Source of the DNA: a virus | DNA: 22,372 nt | IMG/VR virus record: IMGVR_UViG_3300017746_005593 | Location: 1-22,372 of that record | Reading direction: 5' to 3' (one strand) | In this document: in pieces, positions 1,581-16,619 of the stretch | Layout: the number at the start of each line of letters is the position of its first letter | How positions within the stretch are numbered: position 1 is the first letter of the stretch | Program-made: the position numbers and the translations under genes | The notes under the pieces: model-generated | Told to the model about the DNA's origin: nothing | Seen by the model: only the letters and a program-made list of their open reading frames with translations | The model's database searches: none

Positions 1581-2327
1581 TTACATGGGAGTCTTTACAC
1601 CACGTTTTCCTACTACAATAGAGGATTGTTTATTAGCAATTTTAATTGCATTAGAAGCTGATTTAGCTGTAATATATGATAAAGCAAATGCAGCCGTAAA
1701 TGTATCTCCTGCCCCACTCACATCAATAGTTTCTTGTGGGTTTGGAGATGGAAATAATTCTCCATTATACATAGATCCTTTAGCACCTAAAGTTATAATA
1801 ATATTACTATCATCTAATTCCGTATTATTTATCCATTCCCCTTCATTTAATTTAACAAAGGTAAAATGTTTAGTAATACTATTACTAAGTTTTCTTTTAC
1901 TATCTAAAACGGAAACTTTAGAATGAAATGCTATTTTTTTTAAATCCCTATCTGAAAGATAACCTTTATCATAATCACTTATTACTACAATATCTGCTTC
2001 TTCTAGAAAATGAATATAACTATTATCCCATTTAAATGATTCAATGTCTTTATCTCCTTCATCAACTCTTAAAAACATATGGTTTGTTTTCTTTTCAACA
2101 TACCTAGTTTTAGTTATTTGTTTTAGATTAGAGAAATGGATTACTTGAGATTTAGGATCTAATGATTTAATATTAGCAACAGTATTCCCCGACATACCAG
2201 CGTTACTTTCGGTATATAATGGTTCTAATATTGGAACCAGCGCCTCTGGTGATAATCTATTGATAGAACAATAAATAAATCTATCAACACACGCTTCTCC
2301 TATTACTACTATTTTTGTATTTACCAT
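1581..2327 (-). CDS. PfkB-family sugar kinase, HldE N-domain-like (heptose-7-phosphate kinase type), 248 aa
   Basis: A ribokinase/PfkB-fold kinase that resembles the kinase half of HldE (RfaE), which phosphorylates D-glycero-D-manno-heptose 7-phosphate at C1 on the way to ADP-heptose. Visible matches: IGEACVDRF (residues 9-17), the RLSPEALVP stretch (24-32, like RISPEAPVP of HldE), TKTRYV, VISDYDKGYLS, and the PfkB signature GAGDTF (205-210) with catalytic Asp208. It ends IVVGKRGVKTP, like the end of the HldE kinase domain. At 248 aa it is shorter than that domain (~310-320 aa), mainly between the SGNTVANI region and TKTRYV. There is no attached nucleotidyltransferase domain. I set the start at ATG 2325-2327; the upstream in-frame TTG (2342) is less likely. 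It overlaps the preceding small ORF by 44 nt. The substrate is inferred; another sugar phosphate is possible. Confidence 0.8.
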   Translation of the reverse strand: MVNTKIVVIGEACVDRFIYCSINRLSPEALVPILEPLYTESNAGMSGNTVANIKSLDPKSQVIHFSNLKQITKTRYVEKKTNHMFLRVDEGDKDIESFKWDNSYIHFLEEADIVVISDYDKGYLSDRDLKKIAFHSKVSVLDSKRKLSNSITKHFTFVKLNEGEWINNTELDDSNIIITLGAKGSMYNGELFPSPNPQETIDVSGAGDTFTAAFALSYITAKSASNAIKIANKQSSIVVGKRGVKTPM

Positions 2328-2472
2328 AACTTTCTTTTTCAATTTGTATATCTAAACTAATAAGTGTACACATTTTACGAAGTGAATCTGGATAAAATAA
2401 TGCCATTTCAATTAATATTTGATCATCAAATCCTTCAAAATAATTTATTTTGTCTATTTTTCTACCTTTCAA
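2284..2472 (-). CDS. Possible small ORF, 62 aa, TTG start or frameshift product
   Basis: This open frame has protein-like composition (KINYFEGFDDQILIEMALFY then PDSLRKMCTLISLDIQ) but no convincing start: the first candidate is TTG at 2470-2472 and the first ATG is internal (2404-2406). Its start lies inside the end of the 40-aa ORF (2462-2584), one base out of frame. The junction on the coding strand is GAA AGG TAG, and a +1 shift at AGG would read GGT and continue into this frame. It runs 44 nt into the kinase gene in another frame. It may be a TTG-started gene, the second half of a frameshifted or programmed-frameshift protein, or a decayed gene. No family recognised. Confidence 0.4.
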   Translation of the reverse strand: MKGRKIDKINYFEGFDDQILIEMALFYPDSLRKMCTLISLDIQIEKESYGKYKNSSNRRSVC

Positions 2473-3317: not shown

Positions 3318-3494
3318 TTAAAATTTATCTAAAAAGTTTCCTTTAATTATTTTATTTTTTAATTTATTATTTTTATCTTCATCTTTTAACATTTTACTAG
3401 CTAAACGCTCTAAATGTTTTTCTTTTTGTTTATCATAATCATTAACAAGTTTATCATGTTTTGATCTTTTAATATTTCTTGTTTTTTTAGCCAT
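3318..3494 (-). CDS. Small Lys-rich protein, 58 aa
   Basis: ATG at 3492-3494 (overlapping the HNH-protein stop by one base, TAATG) and TAA at 3318-3320, only 3 nt before the glucosaminidase start. The protein begins MAKKTRNIKRSKHDKLVNDY and continues as a charged, probably alpha-helical or coiled segment rich in Lys, Asp and Asn, ending KIIKGNFLDKF. No family recognised. Its fixed position in a chain of overlapping genes and the clean start and stop support a real gene. Confidence 0.65.
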   Translation of the reverse strand: MAKKTRNIKRSKHDKLVNDYDKQKEKHLERLASKMLKDEDKNNKLKNKIIKGNFLDKF

Positions 3495-4120
3495 TATATT
3501 CTTGATATTATATTAAATTCATCTTCATCATCATCACCTAACCCTAACTCTTTTAAACGTTCAAGATGGTAATCATCTACTTCCCATTCAACTTTACCTT
3601 GATTTACTGGTTTATGGTCTTCAATTCCTTCAACTTGTTTATCACTAAAAATATCACCTACTGTTAAAAAATAATGATTATAACACAGTAATTCTATATT
3701 ATCTAATTTATAATTTTTTTTATTATTATCTTTAAAATGTAATAGTAAAGGCATTTTATAATCTAATACTCTACGTTCTTGAAACTCACATACAGCACAT
3801 TTTTCTTCTAAATACCCCTCAGTAATAAGTCTATATTTAATCTTAGCTGGAGTGAACGATGAGGCATTTGCTCTTCCTTCAATAATATCCAGTAATGCAG
3901 GTTCTTTCCCACCTGTTCTTAGAAATTTAGGTATACCTTTACCTGATTGGTTTTTATGTTGTTCAAATAAACTATCATGAGTTTCACTTTCATAGAACTT
4001 AGCCCATTTTTTATAATGTTGGTAAGAACAATTCAAATATCGAGCGGCTGCCATATTTGATTTTGTCTTAGCCATTGCAGCTAAAATAAGTTCTTTTGTA
4101 AGTGGTCTAGCTTTAGGCAT
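3494..4120 (-). CDS. HTH plus HNH-like domain protein, 208 aa
   Basis: The N-terminal ~42 residues look like a helix-turn-helix of Fis/homeodomain type (LTKELILAAMAKTKSNMAAA then RYLNCSYQHYKKWAKFY). The central part has an HNH-endonuclease-like pattern: Cys108-x2-Cys111, LLLHFKDNN (125-133), LDNIELLCYNHYF with Cys146 and His149. The two Cys pairs probably hold a structural zinc. The usual HH(I)DGN core reads His128-Phe129-Lys-Asp131-Asn-Asn, so the second His, normally the general base, seems replaced by Phe. It may be a degenerate nuclease or a DNA-binding protein. The C-terminus is acidic (LGLGDDDEDEF). It overlaps the zinc-finger gene by 8 nt. Confidence 0.65.
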   Translation of the reverse strand: MPKARPLTKELILAAMAKTKSNMAAARYLNCSYQHYKKWAKFYESETHDSLFEQHKNQSGKGIPKFLRTGGKEPALLDIIEGRANASSFTPAKIKYRLITEGYLEEKCAVCEFQERRVLDYKMPLLLHFKDNNKKNYKLDNIELLCYNHYFLTVGDIFSDKQVEGIEDHKPVNQGKVEWEVDDYHLERLKELGLGDDDEDEFNIISRI

Positions 4121-4364
4121 CTAAATCTTTATACGAGTCAAATTTAACTTTTTTGGAATTAGCTTCATCTGCTAATTTTGCTTGTTCTGGAGTCATTATT
4201 TGAATATCATTCCATGTATGATCACCAGTGCCGTTAATAGTACTTATAGCTTTATAAGCACCTATAGTTGAACAATCAACACAGACTTTATACCCAAATT
4301 TTGTTAATCTTAATTCAGGCATATCAACCCCACAAGAGGCACATTTTATCATTTTTAATTTCAT
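4113..4364 (-). CDS. DksA/TraR-type zinc-finger protein, 83 aa
   Basis: Four cysteines in two pairs, Cys8-x2-Cys11 and Cys28-x2-Cys31, in the context CASCGVDMPELRL and YKVCVDC match the C4 zinc finger of DksA/TraR proteins (C-x2-CG-x3-P-x2-R ... C-V-x-C). DksA-family proteins bind RNA polymerase through the secondary channel. This protein lacks the long N-terminal coiled coil of DksA but has a ~50-residue C-terminal tail, so an RNA-polymerase role is only a possibility. The 72-nt gap upstream holds promoter-like motif B, so it probably opens the transcription unit that runs to the kinase gene. It overlaps the next gene by 8 nt. Confidence 0.65.
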   Translation of the reverse strand: MKLKMIKCASCGVDMPELRLTKFGYKVCVDCSTIGAYKAISTINGTGDHTWNDIQIMTPEQAKLADEANSKKVKFDSYKDLDA

Positions 4365-4406
4365 CTATTGTATTTTTATATATTGTAACTAACATATAAC
4401 TATACC

Positions 4407-4416
4407 AATATACGAA
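4407..4416 (-). promoter_or_regulatory. Putative promoter motif B
   Basis: Exact TTCGTATATT on the coding strand, followed by GGTATAGTTATATG. It lies in the 72-nt gap between the 132-aa gene and the DksA-type zinc-finger gene, 42 nt before the latter's ATG. Same 10-mer as in motifs A and D. Function is inferred. Confidence 0.5.
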
Positions 4417-4436
4417 AAGGATATGACTAATCCAAA

Positions 4437-4835
4437 TTATATGTTTGATTTATATTTTATGTAACTCCAAAGATCATCAGAATTTTTAAGTAAAAATTGC
4501 TTTCCATTAGCATCTTCTAGAGGAACTATACTACCATCAGCATCAAACCTATCATAGATATACCACACAATCATATCACCTGCAACTTCTCCATATAACA
4601 TTTTTAAAGTATTTTCAACAACAAACCACAATCCATCTGTTACTTTAGTTAAATCTATTCCACTTGTCTCAAATACTTTATTTTCAATATTATAAGATGC
4701 TTCTAACTTATCAATAAATTTTTTAAAAATAAGTTCTTCAGATTGATCAATATTATCTTTAATATTTACATCAACCCCAAGAATTAAATTAAATAACTTT
4801 TTTAAATCTTTATTATGTCCTGATAGATCTTCCAT
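4437..4835 (-). CDS. Hypothetical acidic protein, 132 aa
   Basis: Unrecognised. Begins MEDLSGHNKDLKKLFNLILG and is mostly predicted helical, acidic, with no membrane segment. The C-terminal half holds LWFVVENTLKMLYGEVAGDM and WYIYDRFDADGS, aromatic-rich and suggestive of a compact helical fold. It starts 5 nt after the 53-aa gene and is followed by the motif B gap, so it is probably the last gene of the unit that starts upstream. Function unknown. Confidence 0.8.
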   Translation of the reverse strand: MEDLSGHNKDLKKLFNLILGVDVNIKDNIDQSEELIFKKFIDKLEASYNIENKVFETSGIDLTKVTDGLWFVVENTLKMLYGEVAGDMIVWYIYDRFDADGSIVPLEDANGKQFLLKNSDDLWSYIKYKSNI

Positions 4836-4840
4836 TTGTA

Positions 4841-5002
4841 TTATTTAATAACTTCTACAGAAAATAGTTTTTTAAAAGTATTTACATCCATTTTTTTAAT
4901 GGCAGCAAAATATTCATAAGCTTGATCAAATGATGATAAACCAGAAGCTTTTCCTATTGCATCCTTATTTGAATCTGTTTTTGAATAAAATTTAAATATC
5001 AT
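4841..5002 (-). CDS. Small conserved-looking phage protein, 53 aa
   Basis: ATG at 5000-5002 overlaps the TGA of the 112-aa gene (ATGA) and it ends with TAA at 4841-4843. The protein starts MIFKFYSKTDSNKDAIGK and continues SFDQAYEYFAAIKKMDVNTF, FKKLFSVEVIK. The pattern FYSKTDS followed by a helix and KLF-V is of a kind I recall from short proteins in T4-like phages. Soluble, mixed charge, unknown role. Confidence 0.65.
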   Translation of the reverse strand: MIFKFYSKTDSNKDAIGKASGLSSFDQAYEYFAAIKKMDVNTFKKLFSVEVIK

Positions 5003-5337
5003 AATTTGTATTTTTTAATTAATTTTTTTAATTGAGTACATCTTTCATATTCTTCATTTTGAAGAAATAAATTATTTACTTGTCCTAATACTGTTTTAAA
5101 TTGTTCTTTTTTTAATTCTAGAATTATAGACATATTAAAAATATTAAACAATTCGGCTTTTTCTTCATTGTTTTTTAAAGCAGAAATAATAGCTTTTAGG
5201 GTTTCTTCAAGAATAAACTCAACGAATTCAGGTGAATTAGCTAAATTAAATAAATCTTCTTGATTATCCCAAACTAATTCAATATTTTTAACCTCTCTTC
5301 TTTTAATATCTTCCATATCTTTTTTGTCATCTTTCAT
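4999..5337 (-). CDS. Hypothetical helical protein, 112 aa
   Basis: A highly charged, all-helical protein: an acidic/basic N-terminus (MKDDKKDMEDIKRREVK), a helical middle (FILEETLKAIISALKNN) and a C-terminal helix NEEYERCTQLKKLIKKYK. That last stretch resembles the UvrB/UvrC (UVR) interaction motif, which often reads EDYERAAELRDxI. This is a short-motif similarity only. It lies 35 nt downstream of the GT2 gene; that gap and the GT2 stop can form a hairpin (5342-5389). Function unknown. Confidence 0.75.
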   Translation of the reverse strand: MKDDKKDMEDIKRREVKNIELVWDNQEDLFNLANSPEFVEFILEETLKAIISALKNNEEKAELFNIFNMSIILELKKEQFKTVLGQVNNLFLQNEEYERCTQLKKLIKKYKL

Positions 5338-5341
5338 TTTA

Positions 5342-5389
5342 GAGGGGATTAATGGGTTACGTTTATAAATATTTAAAACTTAATCCCCC
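5342..5389 (-). other. Inverted repeat at the end of the sugar-gene cluster
   Basis: Arms GGGGATTAA (coding strand, 5388-5380) and TTAATCCCC (about 5352-5344) can pair over nine bases. The ~27-nt A/T-rich loop itself contains a near-palindrome (GTTTTAAATATTTATAAAC). The 5' arm lies in the last codons of the GT2 gene. There is no U-run after the 3' arm, so it is not a standard intrinsic terminator; it could be an RNA-processing or stability element. Confidence 0.35.
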
Positions 5390-6164
5390 TAATAGTATTT
5401 CCTTTAGGACTATGAGAATTATTTTCATATAACGTTGGATCTATTCCCCATTTATATTTGAATAATTGTGCCGCAGGCCCTTCTGTTGCTCTAAATTTAT
5501 TTCCTTCTTTACCATTTTTAGTAGCTGTACTACCAAAATGATATAAGTGTGAGTTATGAGTTCTTGAAAAATTTAACCCTATTAATTCTAATTTTAAAAA
5601 GAAATCCCAGTCACAAATAAAAGGTGATTGATACATTGTATCAAAACCACCAACAGCCATATAATATTTTTTATACATGGCAAACGGGAAAATTCCCCCA
5701 TCAGGTGTTAAGTGATTTTTTTTAATTGTATACTCATAATTTATAAAATCCTCATATTGAAATTCTTTAGGATTACGACCAAAATCATTAACTGGAAAAT
5801 TAAATATTCCAGGACCTGTAGGTTCAATTTGATTAAGTGTTAATACAGATTTTTCTTTTAATGATGATTTAATTTCATTATCCCAATGTCTACCAAATAC
5901 ATTATCATCATTTACTATAAAAATGATTTCATTAGTTGCATTTATAACTCCTAAATTAAGAGCTTGTTGCATTCCTTGATTTTCTCCTAAATCAAGTACT
6001 TTAATATTATTTTTATATTTATCTAAAATTTCTTGACTTTCTTCGATAAATCCATCTACAGCAACAATTATTTCATTTTCACTTAGTTGTTGTTCAATAG
6101 CTGATTGTAAGCAGATGTCTAAATATTCTGGATTTCTATATGTTGGTATTATTAATGATATCAT
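5373..6164 (-). CDS. GT2-family glycosyltransferase (GT-A), 263 aa
   Basis: An inverting GT2-type sugar transferase. The N-terminal Rossmann half shows the family opening MISLIIPTYRNPEYLDICL, a donor-nucleotide Asp (VAVDGF, Asp37) and a metal-binding DxD-like motif in IIFIVNDDNVFG (Asn85-Asp86-Asp87). The centre has a GG-x-F/D acceptor region (AVGGFDTMY then CDWDFFLKLE) typical of GT2 enzymes that act on surface or protein-linked glycans. There is no membrane segment, so it is cytoplasmic. It is the last gene of the sugar cluster and follows the methyltransferase gene by 3 nt. Donor and acceptor cannot be read from the sequence. Confidence 0.85.
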   Translation of the reverse strand: MISLIIPTYRNPEYLDICLQSAIEQQLSENEIIVAVDGFIEESQEILDKYKNNIKVLDLGENQGMQQALNLGVINATNEIIFIVNDDNVFGRHWDNEIKSSLKEKSVLTLNQIEPTGPGIFNFPVNDFGRNPKEFQYEDFINYEYTIKKNHLTPDGGIFPFAMYKKYYMAVGGFDTMYQSPFICDWDFFLKLELIGLNFSRTHNSHLYHFGSTATKNGKEGNKFRATEGPAAQLFKYKWGIDPTLYENNSHSPKGNTIRGIKF

Positions 6165-6167
6165 ATT

Positions 6168-6746
6168 TTAAAATTTATAAACAATTAACACATCATCTTC
6201 TCTATTTTTTTCATTTCTTAAATCAACAATTTCACATTCCCAACTTAATCCTTTTAAATGTAAAAATTCATTTTTAACTGAATCTAAATTTGCTACATCT
6301 TCAATAATGTATATTCCCCCTTTATTCATATGATCTCTTAATAGATTAAAAGTTTTTACTTGATCTTCAAATCTATGACTACCATCATCTATAATAATAT
6401 CAAATTTATCACCTTCAAAATATGATTTAATAAGAGGATTTGTAGCATCTACAATATTAATATTAAATCTTTCATCATTTAAGTAAGGACCAATTTCATT
6501 TGTATGAATGTCAGCCCCATAAATTTTTCCTTTAGAAAAGTATTCATACCACATTTCTAAAGATTCTCCATAAGCAACTCCTATTTCTAGAAGTTTTATA
6601 TTTTTTTCTCTATAGGGACTAAGTAATCTTTCATATTCAGGAATGTAAGAATGTACTGTTCCTTTATCACCATGACCACATCCATAGGCTGCTTCACCTT
6701 TAACCTGCTGTGAATGATGATCAAAAATTTGTTGTAATGTTTTCAT
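6168..6746 (-). CDS. TylF/MycE-like SAM-dependent O-methyltransferase, 192 aa
   Basis: A class I SAM methyltransferase. Motif I is KLLEIGVAYGES (51-62), the post-motif acidic residue is in YGADIH (Asp79) and the metal-site hallmark IIIDDGSH (117-124) is followed by RFEDQVKTFNLL. That DDGSH block is typical of metal-dependent sugar O-methyltransferases of the MycE/TylF/ElmM type, which methylate sugar hydroxyls. Its place among glycosyltransferases fits capping of a glycan. I used ATG 6744-6746, which overlaps the upstream TGA (ATGA); the longer frame to 6779 begins with TTG and would overlap the neighbour by 37 nt. Cytoplasmic. Confidence 0.82.
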   Translation of the reverse strand: MKTLQQIFDHHSQQVKGEAAYGCGHGDKGTVHSYIPEYERLLSPYREKNIKLLEIGVAYGESLEMWYEYFSKGKIYGADIHTNEIGPYLNDERFNINIVDATNPLIKSYFEGDKFDIIIDDGSHRFEDQVKTFNLLRDHMNKGGIYIIEDVANLDSVKNEFLHLKGLSWECEIVDLRNEKNREDDVLIVYKF

Positions 6747-7432
6747 ATTTTTTCCCAATTTGTTAATGGTGATAACCAATCTGTTTCCCCATGTGTTGAA
6801 TAACCTGGTAGTGGTGTAATTAATAATTCATTTTTTTCTCTTAATTCTAAAAACATACTAAAATCATTAGGATGAGTAGTATTAGTATGTTTACGTAAAA
6901 TTTCTTCTGTACGTTTTAATGTTGAAACTTTAGCTGCAAATGTCATAGTAGTACTATTTGTTATCTTCCAATGACAACTATCTGTTAAATACACTCTAGT
7001 ATCTTCAGCTCCACCTTCACAATATGGATTACCCCCTTTATCTGGTCCTATATATTTATCTGGATGATCATATAATGAGACAAATGATGCTCCTAATTCA
7101 AATGCTTCTTGGATTATTTTTTGAGAACCTGGTTTATGAAGATAATCATTTTCTATAAAATAAATAATTTCATCATCATCATACATTAAAGCTTCATCTA
7201 ATGCCATATTAAATGTTGCAGCTCCATTACCTTTTTCAGTATATAAAATACAATTTCGTGTTACATACTTTTGAATCATATTATTAGTATCTTCAGATAC
7301 ATTATCTGCTATAACACTCCATTCAACATCATCAAATTCTTTAGTAGCATTAGCTAAACAACTTTCATTATTTATATAATCAGGTTTGACTTTATTATAA
7401 CCTGCATCTGATATTCTATATATTATTCTCAT
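6743..7432 (-). CDS. Putative divergent GT-A glycosyltransferase, 229 aa
   Basis: Probably a GT-A fold transferase, though the match is weak. The N-terminus alternates strands and helices (MRIIYRISDAGY, WSVIADNV), residues ~64-80 (TEKGNGAATFNMALDEAL) resemble the GT2 loop before the donor Asp, and IIYFIENDYLHKPG (89-102) places Glu94-Asn95-Asp96 where the DxD metal motif is expected. The C-terminal half has aromatic and Thr-rich acceptor-like segments (TNSTTMTFAAK; LPGYSTHGETDW). ATGA overlaps at both ends tie it to the neighbouring glycosyltransferase-like and methyltransferase genes. Substrate unknown. Confidence 0.65.
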   Translation of the reverse strand: MRIIYRISDAGYNKVKPDYINNESCLANATKEFDDVEWSVIADNVSEDTNNMIQKYVTRNCILYTEKGNGAATFNMALDEALMYDDDEIIYFIENDYLHKPGSQKIIQEAFELGASFVSLYDHPDKYIGPDKGGNPYCEGGAEDTRVYLTDSCHWKITNSTTMTFAAKVSTLKRTEEILRKHTNTTHPNDFSMFLELREKNELLITPLPGYSTHGETDWLSPLTNWEKI

Positions 7433-8220
7433 ATAACTAAAACATTTTGATCAGGGTATTGGAAATGACATATTCCTTCTACCATGATATTTTTATGACT
7501 ACAATCGTGAATTTGTTGTTTCTTTACTGTTTGTAACAATATACGATAATTTTCATTAGAAACCAAATGATATTTAGAAAGATTATTTCTAATTATACAT
7601 TTTTTAAGAAAGTCTTCACAAGTCCATCCTTCAATATGTTCCCAAACTCTACCACTATAATTTTCTAAATTTTGGATAAAATTGTAAGTATCATCAACAT
7701 ACTCTTTATCATAGAGATAATCTATTTTAGTTGTATCTATGAAATAAAAATTTGTTTGTGGGTAAAAATCTTCTTTAGCTATTCTATCTAAGTCAAAATT
7801 ATATTTTTCCATCCCCCCAAAGCCAATACCATTCATATAATAAAAGTCACTATTATCAATTTCAATGTCTAAAATTGTAGGTTGGAATACTACATCATAA
7901 GAAGATTTACATATCCATTTTATATTTTTAGCATGACAATAATCTATTATAGCATTTTCTTGATCTGCTATTCCAAATGAATGACCCCTATTCATTCCTA
8001 AATCTAAAATTATACAATCTGGAAAGTATTTTTTCCATAAAGCATTATTTTCTTCTCGGAGATTTTCTGAATAGTTAGTTACTACTATATGACCTTTATA
8101 TTCTTTTAATACTGAGAGGTTATATAGTATGTATCTTTCATGTAGCTCTAGATCACTTTTATTACCTATATGACCTATAGTACAATAATAACTTTTATTT
8201 ATTAGATTTTTTAGTTTCAT
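7429..8220 (-). CDS. Putative glycosyltransferase-like protein, 263 aa
   Basis: No confident family, but the layout suggests a GT-A-like enzyme: KGHIVVTNYSENL, then CIILDLGMNRGHSFGIADQE, NAIIDYCHAKNIKWICKSSY with Asp-Val (YDVVF) near the usual metal-motif position. After that comes an aromatic acceptor-like half with WEHIEGWTCEDFLKKC. It ends with a His/Cys-containing tail (HDCSHKNIMVEGICHF). I set the start at ATG 8218-8220, preceded by GGAAAA and overlapping the epimerase gene by 26 nt; the upstream TTG (8271) and ATG (8256) would lengthen the overlap. The stop overlaps the next ATG (ATGA). Role in the sugar cluster inferred from context. Confidence 0.6.
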   Translation of the reverse strand: MKLKNLINKSYYCTIGHIGNKSDLELHERYILYNLSVLKEYKGHIVVTNYSENLREENNALWKKYFPDCIILDLGMNRGHSFGIADQENAIIDYCHAKNIKWICKSSYDVVFQPTILDIEIDNSDFYYMNGIGFGGMEKYNFDLDRIAKEDFYPQTNFYFIDTTKIDYLYDKEYVDDTYNFIQNLENYSGRVWEHIEGWTCEDFLKKCIIRNNLSKYHLVSNENYRILLQTVKKQQIHDCSHKNIMVEGICHFQYPDQNVLVI

Positions 8221-9220
8221 TTTTCCAAAAACTATAGATTCCTTTTTCAATTTCATATTTAGGCCATACAAATCTATCTCTCATTGGTTGATTTTTAGCC
8301 CACTCCCACATTTGAGTTAAACCTTCTTTCATTGTAGTTTTATACTTAAAATCTAATAAATCAATTGATTTTTGGTATGTTGGTATTGAATGTTTTACTT
8401 CATGTCTACCTTCTAAATGTACAATTTCTCCTTCACCTATTACTTCTCTTAAAATTAAAGATGCGTCTTTTATAGATACTTCTTCAATTCCCCCTAAATT
8501 AATAATTTCTTTACTTGCTTGAGGTCTAACAGCAGCATTCCATAATGGTTCTAATGAATCATCAATAAAACTAAAGGCTCTAGTTTGTTCACCATCCCCA
8601 AAGATTGTCATATCCATTCCATTTAAATGTTGATACATCCAAATACCAAGTACATTTCTGTATTTATCCCAAATATTTTGTTTAATACCATAAACATTAT
8701 GAGGTCTAATAATACACCAATCCAACCCATGTTGTTCACCAGCAATCTGAATGTCCATTTCACAACCATATTTAGCTACTCCATAAGGATCAATTGGTGA
8801 TTGTTGTTGATCTTCATCAAATATTCCACCATTACCATGCCCATATACTGCGAGAGTTGACGTAAATACCAGTCTTTTAACGTCGTGTTTTATACATTCA
8901 TTAACTATGCGGGCTGTGGATTTTAAATTATTATCATAATTATAACAACGAATAAATGGAGATAAACCTTCAGCAGCGTAAGCAGCAAAGTGAAATACAT
9001 AATCAAAATTATTTACTTCAAAACAATTTTCAATTGGGTGTTCTGTAAGATTCATTTGCCAAAAATCTACTTTTGGGTTAATGTTTTCTTCAAAACCACC
9101 ACTTAAATCATCAATACCTACTACTTTATATTCTGGTTTATTTTCAATGATCCAATCTGCTAATCTACTTCCTAGTAGTCCTGCTACTCCTGTAATTAAT
9201 ACTGTTTTTTGCTTATCCAT
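8195..9220 (-). CDS. Extended SDR NAD-dependent sugar epimerase/dehydratase, 341 aa
   Basis: A nucleotide-sugar epimerase of the extended short-chain dehydrogenase family (GalE/UDP-glucuronate epimerase-like). The NAD motif is ITGVAGLLGSR (Gly11, Gly14, Gly17), the conserved segment VFTSTLAVYGHG (118-129) holds the catalytic Ser/Thr, and YGVAK gives catalytic Tyr146 and Lys150. IRPHNVYG and TRAFSFIDD are family landmarks. Length is usual for the family (310-350 aa). It follows the sugar dehydrogenase by 10 nt and overlaps the next glycosyltransferase-like gene. The exact sugar substrate cannot be assigned. Cytoplasmic. Confidence 0.88.
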   Translation of the reverse strand: MDKQKTVLITGVAGLLGSRLADWIIENKPEYKVVGIDDLSGGFEENINPKVDFWQMNLTEHPIENCFEVNNFDYVFHFAAYAAEGLSPFIRCYNYDNNLKSTARIVNECIKHDVKRLVFTSTLAVYGHGNGGIFDEDQQQSPIDPYGVAKYGCEMDIQIAGEQHGLDWCIIRPHNVYGIKQNIWDKYRNVLGIWMYQHLNGMDMTIFGDGEQTRAFSFIDDSLEPLWNAAVRPQASKEIINLGGIEEVSIKDASLILREVIGEGEIVHLEGRHEVKHSIPTYQKSIDLLDFKYKTTMKEGLTQMWEWAKNQPMRDRFVWPKYEIEKGIYSFWKNETKKSNK

Positions 9221-9230
9221 TTTTTAATAA

Positions 9231-10055
9231 TTATATAATTGCTCTTCCTTTCATTTTTTCCCAATCACGATTTTCTCTTACGTCATTGTTTTTATTATCA
9301 GTTGCTGTTAACATTCTTGGTGATAAATCTGCTTCAATAGCTAATGCTATTAAAGCTTTAACATCCTTTGGGAAACAATGTCCCCCATACCCAAAATCTC
9401 CATCAGGTCCTGGTACATTCCAATGTGATTTTCCTAACCTTTCATCGTATGTAGCATATTCTACAACTTTATCATAATCAATATTTAATGCCTCACATAT
9501 TTGATACATTTCATTTGCAAATGATACTTTAGTGGCTAGAAAACTATTAGTAACATATTTAACCATTTCAGCATATGATGAATCTGTTTTAACAATAGAG
9601 GCTTTAGGAAATGCTTTAGCATATAGTTGTTTTAATTTAGTAGTAGCTGGTCTTGGTCCTCCTAATATAATTCTTGTTTGGTTATCAAAGTCACTAACCG
9701 CATTTGCCTCTGTTAAAAATTCTGGATTGAATACAATATCTACTCCAGGGAATTTAGTATTCCATTTTTTTACTGTACCTGGGGGTACTGTGGATTTAAT
9801 AACTATAATTTTAGCTGTATTAATTTTATATATGCGTTCAATAGCATCTTCAACAATATCTATATGGCATGTATTGTCTTCATTCATTGGTGTTGGTAAA
9901 CATACAAATACAATTTCATTATTCATAGTTTCGTGTTCATCACTATTACAATGAATCCTACCTTTTATATCATATGTTTTAACATCATAATACTTACTAA
10001 ACTTTTGGTAAATTGCATTACCTACAAAACCTTGACCTATTATCCCTATTTTCAT
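9231..10055 (-). CDS. UDP-glucose/GDP-mannose-type 6-dehydrogenase lacking the C-terminal domain, 274 aa
   Basis: A nucleotide-sugar 6-dehydrogenase that would oxidise the C6 hydroxyl of a UDP- or GDP-sugar to a uronic acid in two NAD-dependent steps. Visible: Rossmann GIIGQGFVG (4-12), FVCLPTP (50-56), KSTVPPGT (87-94), FNPEFLTEANAV (109-120), the helical link with Lys166 and Asn170, and GYGGHCFPKD (222-231) with catalytic Cys227. The family is normally 390-450 aa; this stops about 40 residues after the catalytic Cys, so most of the C-terminal sugar-nucleotide domain is missing. The stop is clean and the next gene begins 10 nt on, with no leftover reading frame, so this looks like a genuine short form rather than a recent break. 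Confidence 0.86.
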   Translation of the reverse strand: MKIGIIGQGFVGNAIYQKFSKYYDVKTYDIKGRIHCNSDEHETMNNEIVFVCLPTPMNEDNTCHIDIVEDAIERIYKINTAKIIVIKSTVPPGTVKKWNTKFPGVDIVFNPEFLTEANAVSDFDNQTRIILGGPRPATTKLKQLYAKAFPKASIVKTDSSYAEMVKYVTNSFLATKVSFANEMYQICEALNIDYDKVVEYATYDERLGKSHWNVPGPDGDFGYGGHCFPKDVKALIALAIEADLSPRMLTATDNKNNDVRENRDWEKMKGRAII

Positions 10056-10056
10056 A

Positions 10057-10197
10057 TTATATGTTTCTATAGCGTCTTTTATCAGACCATTTAACTTTTT
10101 TACTATTACCTAACATTGATAATCTACTAACTTTTTGATTTAAATTATTTCGAGTTTCATTTGTGTGAGGATTACCATTATTTTGAGTATCTGCCAT
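10057..10197 (-). CDS. Small Asn/Lys-rich protein, 46 aa
   Basis: ATG at 10195-10197, TAA at 10057-10059, filling the gap between the GT2 and dehydrogenase genes almost exactly (1 nt on each side). It begins MADTQNNGNPHTNETRNNLN, an Asn-rich disordered stretch, and ends in a basic segment (SKKVKWSDKRRYRNI). No family recognised. Exact fit between neighbours supports a real gene; its role in a sugar cluster is unclear. Confidence 0.6.
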   Translation of the reverse strand: MADTQNNGNPHTNETRNNLNQKVSRLSMLGNSKKVKWSDKRRYRNI

Positions 10198-10198
10198 T

Positions 10199-10822
10199 TT
10201 AAAGAGTATTATAATAATTATTTTGTTTTACTTGTCTTTCTATATCTTTAGGATGATATAAAGCAAACTCTTCAACTTCATGTAGATTAGACCATGTTTC
10301 ATAGCCTTCCAATACTTCATGTACTTTATTTTTCCATTGAATTTTAGGATGATTTTTATAAATTCTCCACTGAAAATCAGGCCAATTAACCCAACCTTTA
10401 TCATCAACTCTCCAACCCCATTGTTTAATATATTCTTCAGTTAAACCAAATACTGTGTTAACACGGGGTACTCTAATTACTTCATTTTTTGGATTACTTA
10501 ACAAAATTTCTGGTAAGTATTCTATTAATGTTTGGTGGGGTATTTCATCAGCATCAATTTGGAATATATAATCCCCACTACATAAGGAAGTTAAATAATT
10601 TTTCCAATCAGCAAAATGTCCTTCAAATTCTTTTTTATGCCAAAGAAATTCATTATTAATAGAATGAGATCGTAAATATTCTTCAACAGTATTAGTTCCA
10701 TTTTTTGAATCAAATAATATTACTATTTCATCCTCGTATCTTTTATTTTCTAGAAGAAACGATACTAATCTTTGTATTTCTACAGCTTCATTACAAACTG
10801 TTATAGCATAACTAATTTTCAT
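10199..10822 (-). CDS. GT2-family glycosyltransferase, 207 aa
   Basis: A short GT2/GT-A transferase: the strand MKISYAITVCNEA opens the fold, VILFDSKNGT holds the donor Asp (Asp38) and YIFQIDADEIPH (85-96) carries a clear DAD metal motif (Asp90-Ala-Asp92). The downstream WPDFQWRIYKNHPKIQW and KVHEVLEGYE segments are typical of the WaaE/KdtX-like group, which transfers sugars such as heptose or glucose to lipopolysaccharide cores. The gene abuts the epimerase gene with no spacer. Donor and acceptor are unknown; the WaaE-like resemblance is from memory of the motif only. Confidence 0.82.
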   Translation of the reverse strand: MKISYAITVCNEAVEIQRLVSFLLENKRYEDEIVILFDSKNGTNTVEEYLRSHSINNEFLWHKKEFEGHFADWKNYLTSLCSGDYIFQIDADEIPHQTLIEYLPEILLSNPKNEVIRVPRVNTVFGLTEEYIKQWGWRVDDKGWVNWPDFQWRIYKNHPKIQWKNKVHEVLEGYETWSNLHEVEEFALYHPKDIERQVKQNNYYNTL

Positions 10823-11701
10823 TTAGTATAAATTTTGAATATAATCTAATAATCTATCTTGGGGCTCCCAACCTAAAATATCTTGAGCTGTAGTATCAGT
10901 ACATAAAGTTTTTCTATAATTACCAGGTTGGTCAGAAATATATTTTATGGGACAACCTGTTTTGTGTTGAAAAGATTCTGCTAATTCTTTAATAGAATAA
11001 TTAACTCCTGTTCCTAATTCCCAAGCTTCAATTGATGATGGTCGTTGAAAGTCAGCTTCACCTGCATAAAAATTAGATAAACCAATTCTGTATAATCCAT
11101 CTACAATATCATCTACATGGGTGAAATCTCTTTTTTGTTCTCCATCCCCAACAATTTCAATATGAGATTCTCTTGCTATTCTAGATCTCCAAATACCAAT
11201 CACATTACCATTTTTTTCATCTAATGCTTCACCAGGACCATATACATTGTAAAATCTACAAACCTCAATATTTACTCCAAATGATTCTTTATATAAATTA
11301 CATACTCCTTCACCTAAATATTTATACATAGCGTAAGGAGAAGTAGCTGGGTTATGGTGTTTAGATGATGATCCTGCATATACAACTTTTGCTCCTATAC
11401 GAGAAGCAAATTTACAAACTTCTTCTGTTCCTTTTACATTTATTTTAAAAGTTTCAGTTGGGTTAGCAAATGAAGGTTGTACTCTAGATTGAGCCGCTAA
11501 ATGAAATATTAAATCATAATTTTTATCAATATTATCTATGGTTGAAATATCACCATGCCAATATCTACAACCCTCAACTTCATTTTCTACAGTACCTGTA
11601 GAGTAATTATCTAATGATTGAACTTCATGCCCTTCATCTAATAATCTTTTTACTAAATTACTTCCTATAAAACCCGCTCCACCTGTAACTAATATTTTCA
11701 T
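10823..11701 (-). CDS. Extended SDR nucleotide-sugar epimerase, 292 aa
   Basis: A second NAD-dependent epimerase, GalE-like. Canonical GGAGFIG (Gly7, Gly10, Gly13), DNYSTG (31-36, adenosine-ribose contact), HLAAQSRVQPS, KVVYAGSSS (105-113) and catalytic SPYAMYK with Tyr123 and Lys127; RFYNVYGPG follows. The run AAQSRVQPS resembles UDP-glucose and UDP-glucuronate 4-epimerases. It is slightly short (292 against 310-340 aa), mostly at the C-terminus. It overlaps the zinc-ribbon gene (ATGA) and directly abuts the GT2 gene. It is distinct in sequence from the epimerase at 8195-9220, so the phage keeps two non-identical enzymes. Confidence 0.88.
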   Translation of the reverse strand: MKILVTGGAGFIGSNLVKRLLDEGHEVQSLDNYSTGTVENEVEGCRYWHGDISTIDNIDKNYDLIFHLAAQSRVQPSFANPTETFKINVKGTEEVCKFASRIGAKVVYAGSSSKHHNPATSPYAMYKYLGEGVCNLYKESFGVNIEVCRFYNVYGPGEALDEKNGNVIGIWRSRIARESHIEIVGDGEQKRDFTHVDDIVDGLYRIGLSNFYAGEADFQRPSSIEAWELGTGVNYSIKELAESFQHKTGCPIKYISDQPGNYRKTLCTDTTAQDILGWEPQDRLLDYIQNLY

Positions 11702-12162
11702 TTTTCTTCTGCAGTAAATATTCCAATAAAATCTAAAGCTTCTATATAATCTCCTTCACCAAATTCCTTTAAAGTACTCATATCCATTCTCCACTCATAA
11801 TATTCACCTTCTTTATGTGGATTAGGATATTTTTCCTTTTCTTCTTCTTTAACAGGTACTGCTAAAACAGCAGCCCATTTCCAATCAGATGAACTTTTAC
11901 CATTAGCAAAAACCATTCCTTTTCCTGGCATATTAACTGTTGAAGGCATCCAAATTTTTCCTTCTTCATCTTCACCCATTAACTCTTTATAAAGATTAGG
12001 AAGTAATTCCATTTGTTCATTAAAAAATTGTGTATCTTTTACTAATAAGCTGTTAGTTATAAAACCACAACCATAACATTGGTAGTTTTTAATTTTATCA
12101 TTTACTTCTTGTACATAGCATGCATCTGATCCACATCTATCACATATTATTAAATTATCCAT
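11698..12162 (-). CDS. Zinc-ribbon protein, 154 aa
   Basis: The N-terminus forms a zinc ribbon: Cys7-x2-Cys10 (IICDRCGSD) and Cys29-x2-Cys32 (YQCYGCGF), about 20 residues apart as in TFIIS-like ribbons. The rest (residues ~40-154) is a soluble, Trp/Glu-rich domain (WMPSTVNMPG; SSSDWKWAAVLAVPV; YYEWRMDMSTLKEFG) with no recognised family. It is embedded between a GT4 gene (1 nt away) and an epimerase gene (ATGA overlap), so it is co-expressed with the sugar genes, though nothing in it is sugar-related. A DNA/RNA-associated or late phage role is possible. Confidence 0.7.
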   Translation of the reverse strand: MDNLIICDRCGSDACYVQEVNDKIKNYQCYGCGFITNSLLVKDTQFFNEQMELLPNLYKELMGEDEEGKIWMPSTVNMPGKGMVFANGKSSSDWKWAAVLAVPVKEEEKEKYPNPHKEGEYYEWRMDMSTLKEFGEGDYIEALDFIGIFTAEEK

Positions 12163-12163
12163 A

Positions 12164-13450
12164 TTATTGTAATGTTGGTAGCTTAACTCCTTTAATCTCA
12201 GGTAATTTTAAACTTACTTGAGAAGGAACGTCGACATTTTTATCTAAAATATCTATTAATTTTGTTTTCATTGCCTCATAACTAAAGTTTTTCTTTAATC
12301 TATTATTTAAAGTTTTACTTTGTTTACTCCACTTTTTATAGTTTTTCTTAACATCTTTTAGAAAGTGTCCTAAATGACCATGATCAACTTCAAACCATTC
12401 AGAACCTTCAATTAGTACATCTTTTTGTACTGAAGAAGGATCAAGTTTAGCTAATTTACCTCCCATTAATGGTGATAATTTAGGATTTAAAAAGTCAATA
12501 TGTCCACTCCAAGCTGTTGCCATTACAGGTTTTCCTGTTAAAGCAAACTCTAATAAAGGTCTACCAAATCCTTCTCCTTTAGTAGCACTAACCATAGCTT
12601 TAATTTTAGGATGGTTATATAATTCATTAATTTCACTATCTGATAAATCCCCATGAATTAAATAAACATTTGGTAATTTTTCAGAAGGGATTGATTTACG
12701 AATAGAATGTATTCTTTTCATTATTTCCCTTCTATCCATATGTGATCCTTTACCAATACTTGTTTTTAAAATTAAGGCAGGAGAATTAGATTTATTTTTA
12801 AATACTTCATAAAAAGCTTTAATTAATAACCCAACATTTTTTCTATCATGTCCTAAATTACCTTGTAACCAATGTCCCACAAATAAATAAGCGAATTTTT
12901 CAGGAATATCTTGAATATAATCAAATAACTCTTTATTAGTAAACTCTTTAATTCCTTTATAAACATCTAAATTAGCACCTTCAAATAATACTTCAACAGG
13001 GGTTTTAATGTCTAAAGTAGTATCTTGTCCTGTTTGCTCATTTTTAACTGTGTATTTTGTATGTTCAAATACCTTTTTACTATGTTCAGATGAAGTTAAA
13101 ATTAAATCCATTCTATTACAACCTTCAATCCATTGAGGAGCACAAGCTGTTGTTTCAATCCCAGCTGTAAGTCCTATATTATACACTCCTACTTTTTGAA
13201 ATTCATTAGGAACTGTTACTTGACACCAAATATCAGGTTTTGCTTGTAATTGAGGAACAACATAATCTAACATAAATTCCCATTCTGGATGGTCATTTAA
13301 AAATCCCATTCTAGTTTCTCCCCATCTTTGAGATAAAATTTTAACCTCATATTTATCTGATTCTATTAGAGCTTTTACAAAATCTCTAGATCTTGCCCCA
13401 TATCCTGAATAGGTGTTTACGGGAGCGCTTATAACAAATGTATTTTTCAT
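12164..13450 (-). CDS. GT4-type (GT-B) glycosyltransferase, 428 aa
   Basis: A retaining GT-B glycosyltransferase. The N-terminal acceptor half begins VISAPVNTYSGYGARSRD, with the Gly-rich loop of GT4 enzymes. The C-terminal donor half contains FVGHW, LILKTSIGKG, IHGDLSDSEINELYN and the EX7E donor motif Glu293-GFGRPLL-Glu301, followed by LTGKPVMATAWSGHIDF. About 45 residues follow the fold, ending in a Pro/Lys-rich tail (LKLPEIKGVKLPT). Cytoplasmic, no membrane segment. Its start directly abuts the stop of the second GT4 gene, so the pair is coupled and may act in sequence on one glycan. Sugar donor unknown. Confidence 0.86.
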   Translation of the reverse strand: MKNTFVISAPVNTYSGYGARSRDFVKALIESDKYEVKILSQRWGETRMGFLNDHPEWEFMLDYVVPQLQAKPDIWCQVTVPNEFQKVGVYNIGLTAGIETTACAPQWIEGCNRMDLILTSSEHSKKVFEHTKYTVKNEQTGQDTTLDIKTPVEVLFEGANLDVYKGIKEFTNKELFDYIQDIPEKFAYLFVGHWLQGNLGHDRKNVGLLIKAFYEVFKNKSNSPALILKTSIGKGSHMDRREIMKRIHSIRKSIPSEKLPNVYLIHGDLSDSEINELYNHPKIKAMVSATKGEGFGRPLLEFALTGKPVMATAWSGHIDFLNPKLSPLMGGKLAKLDPSSVQKDVLIEGSEWFEVDHGHLGHFLKDVKKNYKKWSKQSKTLNNRLKKNFSYEAMKTKLIDILDKNVDVPSQVSLKLPEIKGVKLPTLQ

Positions 13451-14884
13451 TTAATATTCTAATTTGTGGTTTAATTGTCTTGTTTTATAATCTGTATCTT
13501 TCGAAAATGTGAAAGATTTTCTGGGAGTCCAAGTTGAGAATAATTTATCAATACATTTAGTAAAATTCTGACCCATTTTTTCAGCTGTAAATCCAGCTTC
13601 ATCACTCATAGCCCATTCTCTACCAGAATTACCAATTCTTTGTCTTTCATCTTTAGACATTTTATATAGTTCTACAATTCTATCTTTTGCATCTCTAAAA
13701 TCACATCTACTATCCCAAATATAAGGAGTAATTGGAGAACCAACCATCCCCATAGCTTTAGGATAAACAGATAATGCCCATTCTCCGTGTTCTGTATAGG
13801 TCCCAAATTGATTAGAAGGCATTTCAATAGAATTAGTATACCAATTACCTTTTTCATCAACAAATCTCATTTGATCTTGCATACCACCTGTTACATTAGC
13901 AATAAATGGGGTACCTGTAAGTAATGATTCAGTTAATGATAATCCCCAACCCTCAGCTGCTGATAATAATATTACACCATCAGCCATATTATAAAGATAA
14001 TTCATATGAGTGTATGGAAGTTTTTGATTGGAAATTACTACAGTTTCATCATCATCACCAAATAGATATTCAATTACTGCTGGTAGGTCTGTTCCATGAT
14101 CACTTACAGGATCTGTGTGTAGTATAAATAATACTTTTTCTTTTTCTTTTTCAGTTAAAGAGTCTACAAATAATTTCCAAGCTGTTAATGCATCTGGGAT
14201 TGATTTTCTTCTAATATTTCTTGAATTAAAAAATAAAATAAAATCTCTTTCTTTTCCTAAAGTTAATGCATTTTTAAATTCTTCATATTCTTTATTATAG
14301 TCATCAGACATTGGAAAGAATTTTTTATCATCTAACCCATGAGGAACATATTCAATAACTTTATTACTTGCTTTATCACCTAAAACAATTTTATTAATAG
14401 CTACTGTTTGTTTAGAAATACCAAATAAAGCATCACAAGATTCATAAAATTCCTCATTATATTGAGGTGCAGGCATATCATCCCAAATGTTAAGATACGC
14501 TATTGGAATTTTAGCTCTAATTTCATCTTCCATTTGGAAAACCCATTGAAAATATCTTGGGTCTGTAATTAATAATATAGCATCTGGTTTTTCTCTTTGA
14601 ATTACTGCTCTTAAAGTATCAGGATTACCATATCCATCTACAGGATATAAATTACAATAAGCATCTTCAACTTCCATTTCAGTTTTGATATGGGGAGCAA
14701 AATCTTCAACTTTACCTTTATCAGGATGTTTTACTGAACCTGCAATTTGACACCAATTATATCGATGAGCAGTATTTAAAACAATCTCTCTTCCAATTTG
14801 AGCAACACCCGAATGAACTCTAATATCATCCGTGAGTAATAAAATTTTCTTTCTATCACTTTGTTTAATATAACCTTCTTTCAT
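13451..14884 (-). CDS. GT4-type (GT-B) glycosyltransferase, 477 aa
   Basis: A second large GT-B enzyme. N-terminal half: KILLLTDDIRVHSGVAQIGR with the GT4 loop, and ITDPRYFQWVFQ. Donor half: FFNSRNIRRKSIPDALTAW (phosphate-binding Arg/Lys), LFILHTDPVSDHGTD, QKLPYTHMNYLYNMADG and the EX7E motif Glu311-GWGLSLT-Glu319, then LTGTPFIANVTGG. A TYTEHGEWALSV stretch in a loop after the donor motif and a C-terminal tail (~30 aa, basic) are extra. It is the first enzyme gene of the sugar cluster, 10 nt after the ribbon-helix-helix gene. Leader AAATAAAATTAA before ATG lacks a Shine-Dalgarno site. Confidence 0.86.
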   Translation of the reverse strand: MKEGYIKQSDRKKILLLTDDIRVHSGVAQIGREIVLNTAHRYNWCQIAGSVKHPDKGKVEDFAPHIKTEMEVEDAYCNLYPVDGYGNPDTLRAVIQREKPDAILLITDPRYFQWVFQMEDEIRAKIPIAYLNIWDDMPAPQYNEEFYESCDALFGISKQTVAINKIVLGDKASNKVIEYVPHGLDDKKFFPMSDDYNKEYEEFKNALTLGKERDFILFFNSRNIRRKSIPDALTAWKLFVDSLTEKEKEKVLFILHTDPVSDHGTDLPAVIEYLFGDDDETVVISNQKLPYTHMNYLYNMADGVILLSAAEGWGLSLTESLLTGTPFIANVTGGMQDQMRFVDEKGNWYTNSIEMPSNQFGTYTEHGEWALSVYPKAMGMVGSPITPYIWDSRCDFRDAKDRIVELYKMSKDERQRIGNSGREWAMSDEAGFTAEKMGQNFTKCIDKLFSTWTPRKSFTFSKDTDYKTRQLNHKLEY

Positions 14885-14894
14885 TTAATTTTAT

Positions 14895-15086
14895 TTAATT
14901 ATTAATTTCTAAATTTGTTTGAGAATTTATTTTTTTTCTAAAATCTTCATCTGTAAGATACAAAAAGATAGCTCGATCTGCAAGTTTTTGGAAACTAAAT
15001 TTTCTTTTTACACATTCGATTTTGAAATTTTCAAATAAATTACTTTTTACTTTTACACTAGTAAGTGTCATTTCTTTCTTGTCCAT
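14895..15086 (-). CDS. Ribbon-helix-helix-like small regulator, 63 aa
   Basis: The pattern fits a ribbon-helix-helix (Arc/MetJ-like) fold: a beta strand TLTSVKVKSNLF (residues ~7-18), helix A FENFKIECVKRK and helix B SFQKLADRAIFLYL, then a charged tail (TDEDFRKKI). Such dimers bind palindromic operators through the paired strands. It stands first in the run leading into the two GT4 genes and is separated from the nuclease gene by a 45-nt gap with promoter-like motif C, which contains the palindrome ATACGTAT (15115-15122). Autoregulation is therefore plausible. No experimental or database support here. Confidence 0.65.
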   Translation of the reverse strand: MDKKEMTLTSVKVKSNLFENFKIECVKRKFSFQKLADRAIFLYLTDEDFRKKINSQTNLEINN

Positions 15087-16088: not shown

Positions 16089-16619
16089 TTATTTTACCCA
16101 TTTAATATAATTAGTATAATAAGCATAACCGTGTACTATATTAGTACTTAAAAATACTTCTAAATCAGGATATCTAGATTTCATTATTCTAGGTGTTAAA
16201 TCTGGTTGATGGTGAATTTCTGATTCTACTCCACCAACAGCTCCTTGTTCATGTAGATAAGGAACAGCTACCATACATTTAATTCCTTTTGATGTAATAT
16301 CTTTGATTAATTTTTGTGCGGGTTCAACTTTGATATGTTCTAATACATCTCCAATTATGATATAATCATAATCATCATAATCAAAGTTTAGAATATCTCC
16401 TACAATAACATTATTGTAATAACGATGAAGGCCATATTCTTTAATATAGGGTTCATGAATTTCTAAAGCATCAATATGTAAATCTTGTAAATTTGATCCC
16501 CATACTCCAATCCCAGCTCCTACATCTAGGATTTTATTTCTATAAGGAAGATGTTCTAGAACTACAGTACGAATATGTTCATACATTACATCTTTAAAAG
16601 TATTAGTACTTGATGGCAT
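16089..16619 (-). CDS. Class I SAM-dependent methyltransferase, 176 aa
   Basis: Motif I KILDVGAGIGVWG (29-41), acidic motif II around LEIHEPY (52-58) and IIIGDVLEHI (87-96), the DVLEH form common in Methyltransf_11/23-type small-molecule, lipid and sugar methyltransferases. The tail includes VPYLHEQGAVGG and ESEIHHQPDLT, which may be the acceptor region. No DNA-methylase catalytic motif (DPPY, NPPF or PCQ) is present, so it is unlikely to be a DNA adenine or cytosine methylase. It sits between the nucleotide-modification-associated gene and the nuclease. Substrate unknown. Confidence 0.8.
   Translation of the reverse strand: MPSSTNTFKDVMYEHIRTVVLEHLPYRNKILDVGAGIGVWGSNLQDLHIDALEIHEPYIKEYGLHRYYNNVIVGDILNFDYDDYDYIIIGDVLEHIKVEPAQKLIKDITSKGIKCMVAVPYLHEQGAVGGVESEIHHQPDLTPRIMKSRYPDLEVFLSTNIVHGYAYYTNYIKWVK

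Follow-up and report, generated by a model that had tools for sequence, protein, structure and literature searches.

A putative phage glycotype locus with a constant glycosyltransferase anchor and an exchangeable sugar-gene cassette

Introduction

What does a phage build with a dozen consecutive sugar genes, and to what does it attach the product? The question is raised by a cluster at positions 5373-14884 of virus record IMGVR_UViG_3300017746_005593 (IMG/VR), a fragment of 22,372 bases that was analysed whole and is referred to here as the window. The original prediction, made from the sequence alone, was that these genes are co-expressed and let the phage make its own sugars, with the acceptor left open among DNA, virion protein and host surface. 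Glycans built by viruses have been studied closely in giant algal viruses and, to our knowledge, little in marine phages. Beyond what that prediction noticed, we find that a GT4-GT4-Zn-GT2 block (genes GTa, GTb, Zn and GT2e, the anchor) is nearly constant among relatives of the cluster, while the genes set behind it, the interior, form a swappable cassette. We suggest a phage glycotype locus that would specify a constant core and a variable outer glycan, made in the cytosol and placed most likely on a virion protein, a reading that we hold at a little below an even chance.

Organisation of the locus and its relatives

All genes of the cluster lie on the minus strand, arranged head to tail with intergenic distances of 0, 1, -4, 0, 1, 1, 10, -77, -4, -37 and 3 nt (range -77 to +10). 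In order of transcription they are:

GTa, 13451..14884, minus strand: GT4-type glycosyltransferase, 477 aa, anchor gene (PF00534, PHROG 2170, invariant Glu pair)
GTb, 12164..13450, minus strand: GT4-type glycosyltransferase, 428 aa, anchor gene (PHROG 2170, PF00534 just below cut-off)
Zn, 11698..12162, minus strand: Cys-rich 'Zn' protein, 154 aa, anchor gene (present in 25/25 complete islands)
EpiD, 10823..11701, minus strand: NDP-sugar epimerase/dehydratase family, 292 aa (PF01370)
GT2e, 10199..10822, minus strand: GT2 glycosyltransferase, 207 aa, anchor gene (PF00535; 25/25 complete islands)
46-aa ORF, 10057..10197, minus strand: doubtful gene filling the GT2e-Ugd gap, a gap missing in 23 other loci
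Ugd, 9231..10055, minus strand: predicted compact UDP-glucose-type 6-dehydrogenase, 274 aa (PF03721 and PF00984)
EpiG, 8195..9220, minus strand: NDP-sugar epimerase, 341 aa (PF01370)
GTh, 7429..8271, minus strand: predicted glycosyltransferase of GT-A fold, outside any family, 280 aa, start probably at the conserved 8220 (AlphaFold model)
GTi, 6743..7432, minus strand: GT2-like transferase, 229 aa (profile match to GT2k)
MT, 6168..6779, minus strand: SAM-dependent methyltransferase, 203 aa, start perhaps 6746 (PF13578, PF13847, PHROG 21658)
GT2k, 5373..6164, minus strand: GT2 glycosyltransferase, 263 aa, final cassette gene (PF00535)

Eleven of these genes are solid and the twelfth, the 46-aa ORF, is doubtful, because Ugd abuts GT2e in the 23 other loci (13 contigs) that have Ugd after GT2e, at distances of -4 to 2 nt that leave no space for such an ORF. 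The two large overlaps become smaller if translation begins at Met18 in GTh (8220, conserved in the alignment) and at Met12 in MT (6746, an internal Met evident in the sequence).

A scan of viral contigs with GTb gave 404 relatives, the best 80 of which were kept; further loci came from a scan with GTh, from annotated phages and from 18 contigs of metagenome-assembled genomes (MAGs). The 119 loci with an intact GTb ORF, some sharing a contig, represent 78 lineages at 95% identity (L001, L106-L118 and L137 are left out of lineage counts, as are ORFs under 60 aa), and the 25 lineages with the far border of the locus in view, the window's included, are called complete islands. Of the 73 lineages whose sequence is long enough, 69 have GTa directly upstream of GTb; Zn follows downstream of GTb in 51 of 55 lineages and GT2e in 53 of 55, and all 25 complete islands have both. 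The interiors of these islands comprise 68 families in 22 distinct arrangements. Two families, Zn and GT2e, occur in at least 80% of the islands, and 28 are confined to a single island. Genes labelled GT2k, which fall in two sequence families (14 and 7 islands), are found in 21 islands, GTi in 14, GTh and EpiG in 13 each, EpiD in 12, Ugd in 4, PfkB in 3 and MT in 2. For the 15 islands that extend to GroEL, the block upstream of the anchor was taken as control, counting proteins of at least 100 aa and omitting Zn and GT2e from the interior (7.3 and 7.0 genes per island for interior and upstream block, respectively): families present in at least 80% of islands hold 16% of the interior genes, versus 83% of those of the upstream block.

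The anchor order is retained down to 42-45% GTb identity, and neither Zn nor GT2e was seen in four loci at 32-35% (L132, L133, L135 and L136). A GTa relative (27%) also occurs in Rhodothermus phage RM378, where the gene after it matches the GTb profile at only 47.7%. Pfam was searched with twenty interior proteins, drawn from open as well as complete islands, and gave no match at E<=0.001 for five of them. Among the others are one transferase each of GT10, GT9 and GT2, two DegT aminotransferases, an epimerase, a cytidylyltransferase, RmlC and WbqC. They also include a PglD-like acyltransferase, a sulfotransferase, TylF and another methyltransferase, a fusion of GNAT and methyltransferase, and a weak GH43/130-like protein.

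Exchange of the cassette

Two loci, L067 and L081, share a backbone and differ in the interior. Wherever 500-base bins gave a match, the flanks on either side have 70-96% DNA identity, and positions 12.4-16.9 kb of L067 have no blastn match in L081: the interior was replaced as a whole, right after GT2e. L094 and L095 share approximately 2 kb at 100% identity within flanks of 67-79%. Another relative, L002, is 99% identical to the window and falls to 89-95% at its very end, inside EpiD, a segment too short for a breakpoint call.

The identity of GTa follows that of GTb closely (Spearman 0.91, 2213 pairs), and that of EpiG does not (-0.01, 210 pairs). Values for the other cassette genes are 0.18 for GTi, 0.57 for GTh, 0.58 for GT2e, 0.70 for Zn, 0.74 for EpiD and 0.83 for GT2k, and for genes outside the cassette 0.85 for GroEL, 0.77 for the PDDEXK nuclease, 0.71 for the clamp loader and 0.48 for HNH. 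This spread indicates that exchange is uneven among the cassette genes and not limited to the cassette.

Enzymes of the anchor and the cassette

The four clear glycosyltransferases (two GT4, two GT2) and two epimerases recognised at the outset are all supported by family models or profiles. GTa matches PF00534 at 29.9 bits (cut-off 26.4) and PHROG 2170 at 1.6e-18, and a profile comparison places it nearest, among solved proteins, to chlorovirus B736L (4e-10). GTb is 0.5 bits below the PF00534 cut-off (25.9 bits), matches the PHROG 2170 glycosyltransferases at 6e-26, is related to GTa by profile (95.6%) and likewise has B736L as its nearest solved sequence. The signature of GT4 enzymes is E-x7-E, and both proteins combine it with a GT-B C-terminal domain (E311/E319 in GTa and E293/E301 in GTb, invariant in 24 and 21 aligned sequences, respectively). 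GT2k and GT2e match PF00535 at 71.6 and 35.0 bits (curated cut-off 23.3).

EpiG (PF01370, 137.7 bits) and EpiD (153.7 bits) share the UDP-glucose 4-epimerase 4zrm as best solved relative, at 1.3e-41 for EpiG; the next for EpiD is the UDP-glucuronic acid decarboxylase 4m55. Solved decarboxylases of this kind are among the best matches of EpiD, and UDP-xylose synthase is the route discussed for RB69 arabinose. UDP-xylose synthase activity is marked by a Thr-Ser-Glu motif, which was not seen at the catalytic Ser/Thr of EpiD (SSSKHHNP; TSTLAVYG in EpiG), and this assignment was rejected. All that is left of EpiD between Zn and GT2e in L005 and L006 is a remnant of some 70 aa.

The two weak TRANSFERASES, GTh and GTi, were checked for kinship to glycosyltransferases, and both turned out to have it, GTh by fold and GTi by sequence profile only. 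GTh has no transferase family match in family-model searches and no solved sequence at E<=1 by profile search, and its profile compared with those of GT2k and GT2e gave 10% and 0.2%. Its AlphaFold (AF2) model (pLDDT 79.2, pTM 0.80) has a GT-A fold and aligns with the chondroitin polymerase CHSY3-CHPF at a VIA-align Z of 12.3 (180 residues, rmsd 3.1). All 50 Foldseek matches listed are glycosyltransferases, but at low TM-scores (0.26-0.37). GTh is therefore predicted, from the model, to be a GT-A fold glycosyltransferase; the fold is no proof of transferase activity, since nucleotidyltransferases reach similar values (6pd1, Z 10.2; 7p97, Z 9.5). For GTi, profile comparison with GT2k gives a probability of 91.8% (E 7e-7) and with GT2e 0.1%; PF00535 scores 18.5 bits, below the curated cut-off of 23.3, and a profile search of solved structures returned chance-level matches only (best E 0.34).

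The dehydrogenase and METHYLTRANSFERASE, Ugd and MT, were looked at together. Ugd matches PF00984 (97.8 bits), PF03721 (79.6 bits) and TIGR03026 (212.6 bits, over 189.8), and carries GGHCFPKD and STVPPGT, read from the sequence, which we take to be catalytic motifs. No C-terminal UDP-binding domain was matched in Pfam, and the protein ends at 274 aa. As relatives have 274-276 aa, this short form is inherited and not a sequencing error. Ugd is a predicted enzyme. The family assignment of the original prediction thus stands, and its 'oxidised' glycan is weakened, both by the missing UDP-binding domain and by the presence of Ugd in only 4 of the 25 complete islands. A Ugd relative (57%) also lies at L126:5819, upstream of the PDDEXK nuclease and not inside a cassette.

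MT matches PF13578 (31.5 bits) and PF13847 (33.4 bits), both above cut-off, as well as PHROG 21658, which places it, by sequence, among the class I methyltransferases. PF05711 (TylF) was not matched at E <= 0.1, so the 'TylF/MycE-like' label holds at the level of the methyltransferase superfamily and not for the TylF family itself; a related cassette (L018) does hold a true TylF member. In three loci (L067:14716-15984, L090:9234-10517 and L091:10843-12126) one fused protein of 422-427 aa combines relatives of GTi and MT, which suggests that the two may act on the same end of the glycan.

Zn is the only anchor gene without a functional clue. Cys7 and Cys32 are invariant in 34 aligned sequences, and zinc binding is a guess from these cysteines alone. 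The protein has no Pfam or PHROG match, and a profile search of solved structures was empty at E<=1. Its AF2 model is confident (pLDDT 92.5) and has no solved match at E<=0.001 (best Z 3.4), which does not by itself establish a new fold; one uncharacterised phage protein was matched at E<=0.001 in a viral library. As a speculation, Zn might connect the transferases to their acceptor.

Where the glycan may go

Enzyme assignments and gene packing bear out, at sequence level, a phage that makes its own sugars from operon-like genes. As to the acceptor, the data count against DNA and leave virion protein and host glycan undecided. No protein of the window's cluster has a membrane helix by hydropathy, and thereby the cluster has no membrane flippase, polymerase or initiating transferase. 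Across the 25 islands, 7 of 236 interior proteins pass the hydropathy threshold, four of them SDR-like Rossmann proteins, versus 40 of 559 ORFs outside the interior. The initiating transferase family PF02397 was found in none of seven large records of related phages (0/7), with a control that worked; no model search covered flippase and polymerase families. The few membrane proteins and the missing PF02397 point to synthesis on a soluble acceptor, and the data count against a phage-encoded lipid-linked export pathway.

Synthesis would take place in the cytosol, since the enzymes appear to be soluble and the search for an initiating transferase came up empty. One conserved acceptor would receive a constant inner glycan from the anchor transferases and a variable outer glycan from the interior enzymes. 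The interior holds families that make activated sugars (epimerases and a dehydrogenase here, aminotransferases and RmlC in other islands), further transferases, and methyl-, acyl- and sulfotransferase families for capping. For this phage, the predicted outer part contains an epimerised and possibly uronic sugar that is O-methylated, with GTi and MT acting on the same end. A virion protein is our first choice of acceptor, both by elimination and from the analogy of chlorovirus capsid glycans (PMC9614988), at about even odds at best; it would be glycosylated in the cytosol ahead of assembly, and exchange of the cassette would alter the sugar coat of the particle. A bolder form of this proposal, which we consider unlikely, is phage serotype switching, in which a conserved initiation complex, made of the GT4 pair and a new small targeting protein of unassigned fold, would write the core on one virion protein, and the cassette, exchanged as a whole among phages, the outer glycan. 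If true, marine flavobacterial phages would have interchangeable coats, as capsule loci give bacteria.

Several points weigh against a glycan on a virion protein. Acceptor, glycan and expression are predictions from the genes. The locus stands beside replication genes and not virion genes, which fits a DNA or host-surface role equally, and B736L, the chlorovirus enzyme nearest GTa and GTb, has an unproven acceptor (PMC9614988). Comparable variable loci of pelagimyophages were read as host O-chain modification (PMC7029224). Cassette enzymes could possibly extend host lipid-linked sugars with no membrane enzymes of their own. With QueC and a DpdA homologue in five of the seven large records, most large relatives may carry a modified base. 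Exchange is not confined to the interior, as the values for HNH outside it (0.48) and GT2k inside it (0.83) indicate, and the 100% block of L094 and L095 could be a chimeric assembly.

The phage enzymes might instead extend or replace sugars of host lipopolysaccharide (LPS), O-antigen or capsule and thereby block superinfection or free progeny, with the variability of the cassette tracking competition for receptors. This is how the glycosyltransferase, Ugd and rfaE genes of marine pelagimyophages have been read in print (PMC7029224), and a PfkB kinase of the window nearest heptose-7-phosphate kinase, a GT9 heptosyltransferase-family member in the related island L072 and the position of the locus among replication genes speak for it. 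We regard it as possible though somewhat unlikely, given a cluster free of membrane proteins by hydropathy, the seven interior proteins of 236 over the threshold (three once the SDR-like ones are set aside), the lack of PF02397 in all seven large records within the limits given above, and the short time that a lytic phage would presumably have to rebuild a surface polymer. Quite improbable, in our judgement, is a role in DNA hypermodification, in which the transferases would put sugars on a modified base against nucleases, as virus-encoded transferases do in T4-like phages (PMC6024577). Replication genes adjoin the locus, and QueC with a DpdA homologue, searched with immuto's annotated DpdA protein, is present in NC_055915.1 (L111), G001, G003, G004 and G005; yet G006 and Mel-JY01 have relatives of the transferases, and QueC and DpdA were not found in them (G006 may be incomplete). 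PF00303, the thymidylate synthase/hydroxymethylase superfamily, is absent from all six large IMG/VR records, of which G001 and G002 form one close group, and also from Mel-JY01, the sole match among eight records being the annotated ThyA of immuto. On this ground a DNA acceptor via hydroxymethylpyrimidine was rejected; the test was made in relatives, some of which may be incomplete, the window record being a 22 kb fragment. Six of seven records have no C5 DNA methylase (Mel-JY01 alone has one), QueF is found in one of seven (immuto only), and several transferases together with amino, acyl and sulfate genes would seem to exceed the needs of a base sugar. Two further models carry little weight: Tet_JBP matched none of the seven large records with its control silent, and PF01702 (TGT) matched none of them in a search that also misses immuto's annotated DpdA.

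Least probable, and to our mind very unlikely, is a loose set of horizontally acquired bacterial sugar genes without a common product, auxiliary metabolic genes retained through hitchhiking. Fast turnover of interior genes, with 28 of 68 families in a single island, and the reduction of EpiD to a remnant in L005 and L006 would fit such a set. Against it stand the anchor order kept down to 42-45% GTb identity (the loss of sight of Zn and GT2e in four loci at 32-35% notwithstanding), the occurrence of both genes in every complete island and a replacement between L067 and L081 that took the whole interior.

Genomic neighbourhood

The phage origin that had been assumed for the window is borne out by neighbouring genes and by synteny with a complete phage genome. 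The neighbours include a PDDEXK nuclease, an endolysin-type glucosaminidase, an HNH nuclease and GroEL, and the window also carries relatives of phage genes that are annotated elsewhere as clamp loader and GroES. The GroEL nearest to its own is that of Flavobacterium phage immuto (58%), which makes a flavobacterial host likely. The same phage block occurs in contigs binned as Woesearchaeota, Pelagibacter and Euryarchaeota (L122, L123 and L124, respectively), probably phage contigs put into those bins. Features flanking the cluster are:

PDDEXK nuclease, 15132-16079: before CopG63 (family match)
CopG63, 14895..15086, minus strand: small conserved 63-aa protein, labelled by eye, just before the cassette (synteny)
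Far border, 3494..5337, minus strand: 112-aa, 132-aa and 83-aa proteins and HNH nuclease (recurrence in relatives)
PfkB-family sugar kinase, 1581..2342, minus strand: possible accessory (PF00294, 62.9 bits)

The four genes of the far border (x112, x132, x83 and HNH) come back beyond the variable interior in relatives, with varying completeness. The PfkB kinase, whose best solved relative is a heptose-7-phosphate kinase (8e-13 over residues 174-251), lies outside the cassette in the window, and its relatives lie inside it in 3 of 25 islands (L061, L068 and L076). Among the replication genes of the window are a methyltransferase-like gene (16089-16619) and a gene with no Pfam or PHROG match (18116-18742).

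Comparison with known systems

A constant anchor predicts one conserved acceptor, and isolated immuto phages carry the anchor. An acceptor on the virion would give phages a counterpart of bacterial capsule types, and one on the host surface would make the locus a fast-evolving superinfection barrier. In either case biochemistry gains a fused transferase and methyltransferase, a sugar dehydrogenase of compact form and, in Zn, a small conserved protein of unassigned fold.

No listing from literature searches aimed at such loci named this one, subscription papers being largely outside their reach, and the accessible part of PMC7077304, on Baltic Flavobacterium phages, does not mention immuto. Flavobacterium phage immuto (Immutovirus), isolated on Flavobacterium sp. 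LMO8, shares both anchor and flanks in its gp183-gp169 (identities of 53% for GTb, 48% for GTa and 41% for Zn); its interior differs, with aminotransferases, a pilin-glycosylation-type protein and other transferases, and no gene annotated as Ugd. RB69 and T4 resemble this phage as T4-like phages with transferases of their own and, as candidates, their own UDP-sugar genes (PMC6024577). DNA glycosylation there needs hydroxymethylcytosine, whereas no such enzyme family is present in the six large IMG/VR relatives.

Glycosylated virions are known from mycobacteriophages, in which glycans are found on capsid and tail tube subunits (as described in PMC12619734) and here are proposed only; the same source describes a large aquatic phage lineage with four core transferase groups. 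Chlorovirus PBCV-1 offers a parallel for constant and variable enzyme sets, at gene level only in our case. Its capsid glycans have a conserved core of five sugars (PMC7826918), its A064R is a transferase-methyltransferase fusion (PMC9614988), and like the phage it encodes its own transferases and methyltransferases, the nearest solved sequence to GTa and GTb being chlorovirus B736L. Unlike the phage cluster, which is known from genes alone, it belongs to a eukaryotic virus with a known glycan acceptor. Hypervariable loci of pelagimyophages and cyanomyophages, marine T4-like phages, also contain transferases, UDP-glucose 6-dehydrogenase and rfaE among their variable genes, usually in the structural region with tail fibres and also as small groups elsewhere (PMC7029224). 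The present locus differs from these in lying between replication and HNH/endolysin genes and in its GT4-GT4-Zn-GT2 block, and such an anchor beside replication genes, combined with replacement of the whole interior, is new as far as the literature was searched.

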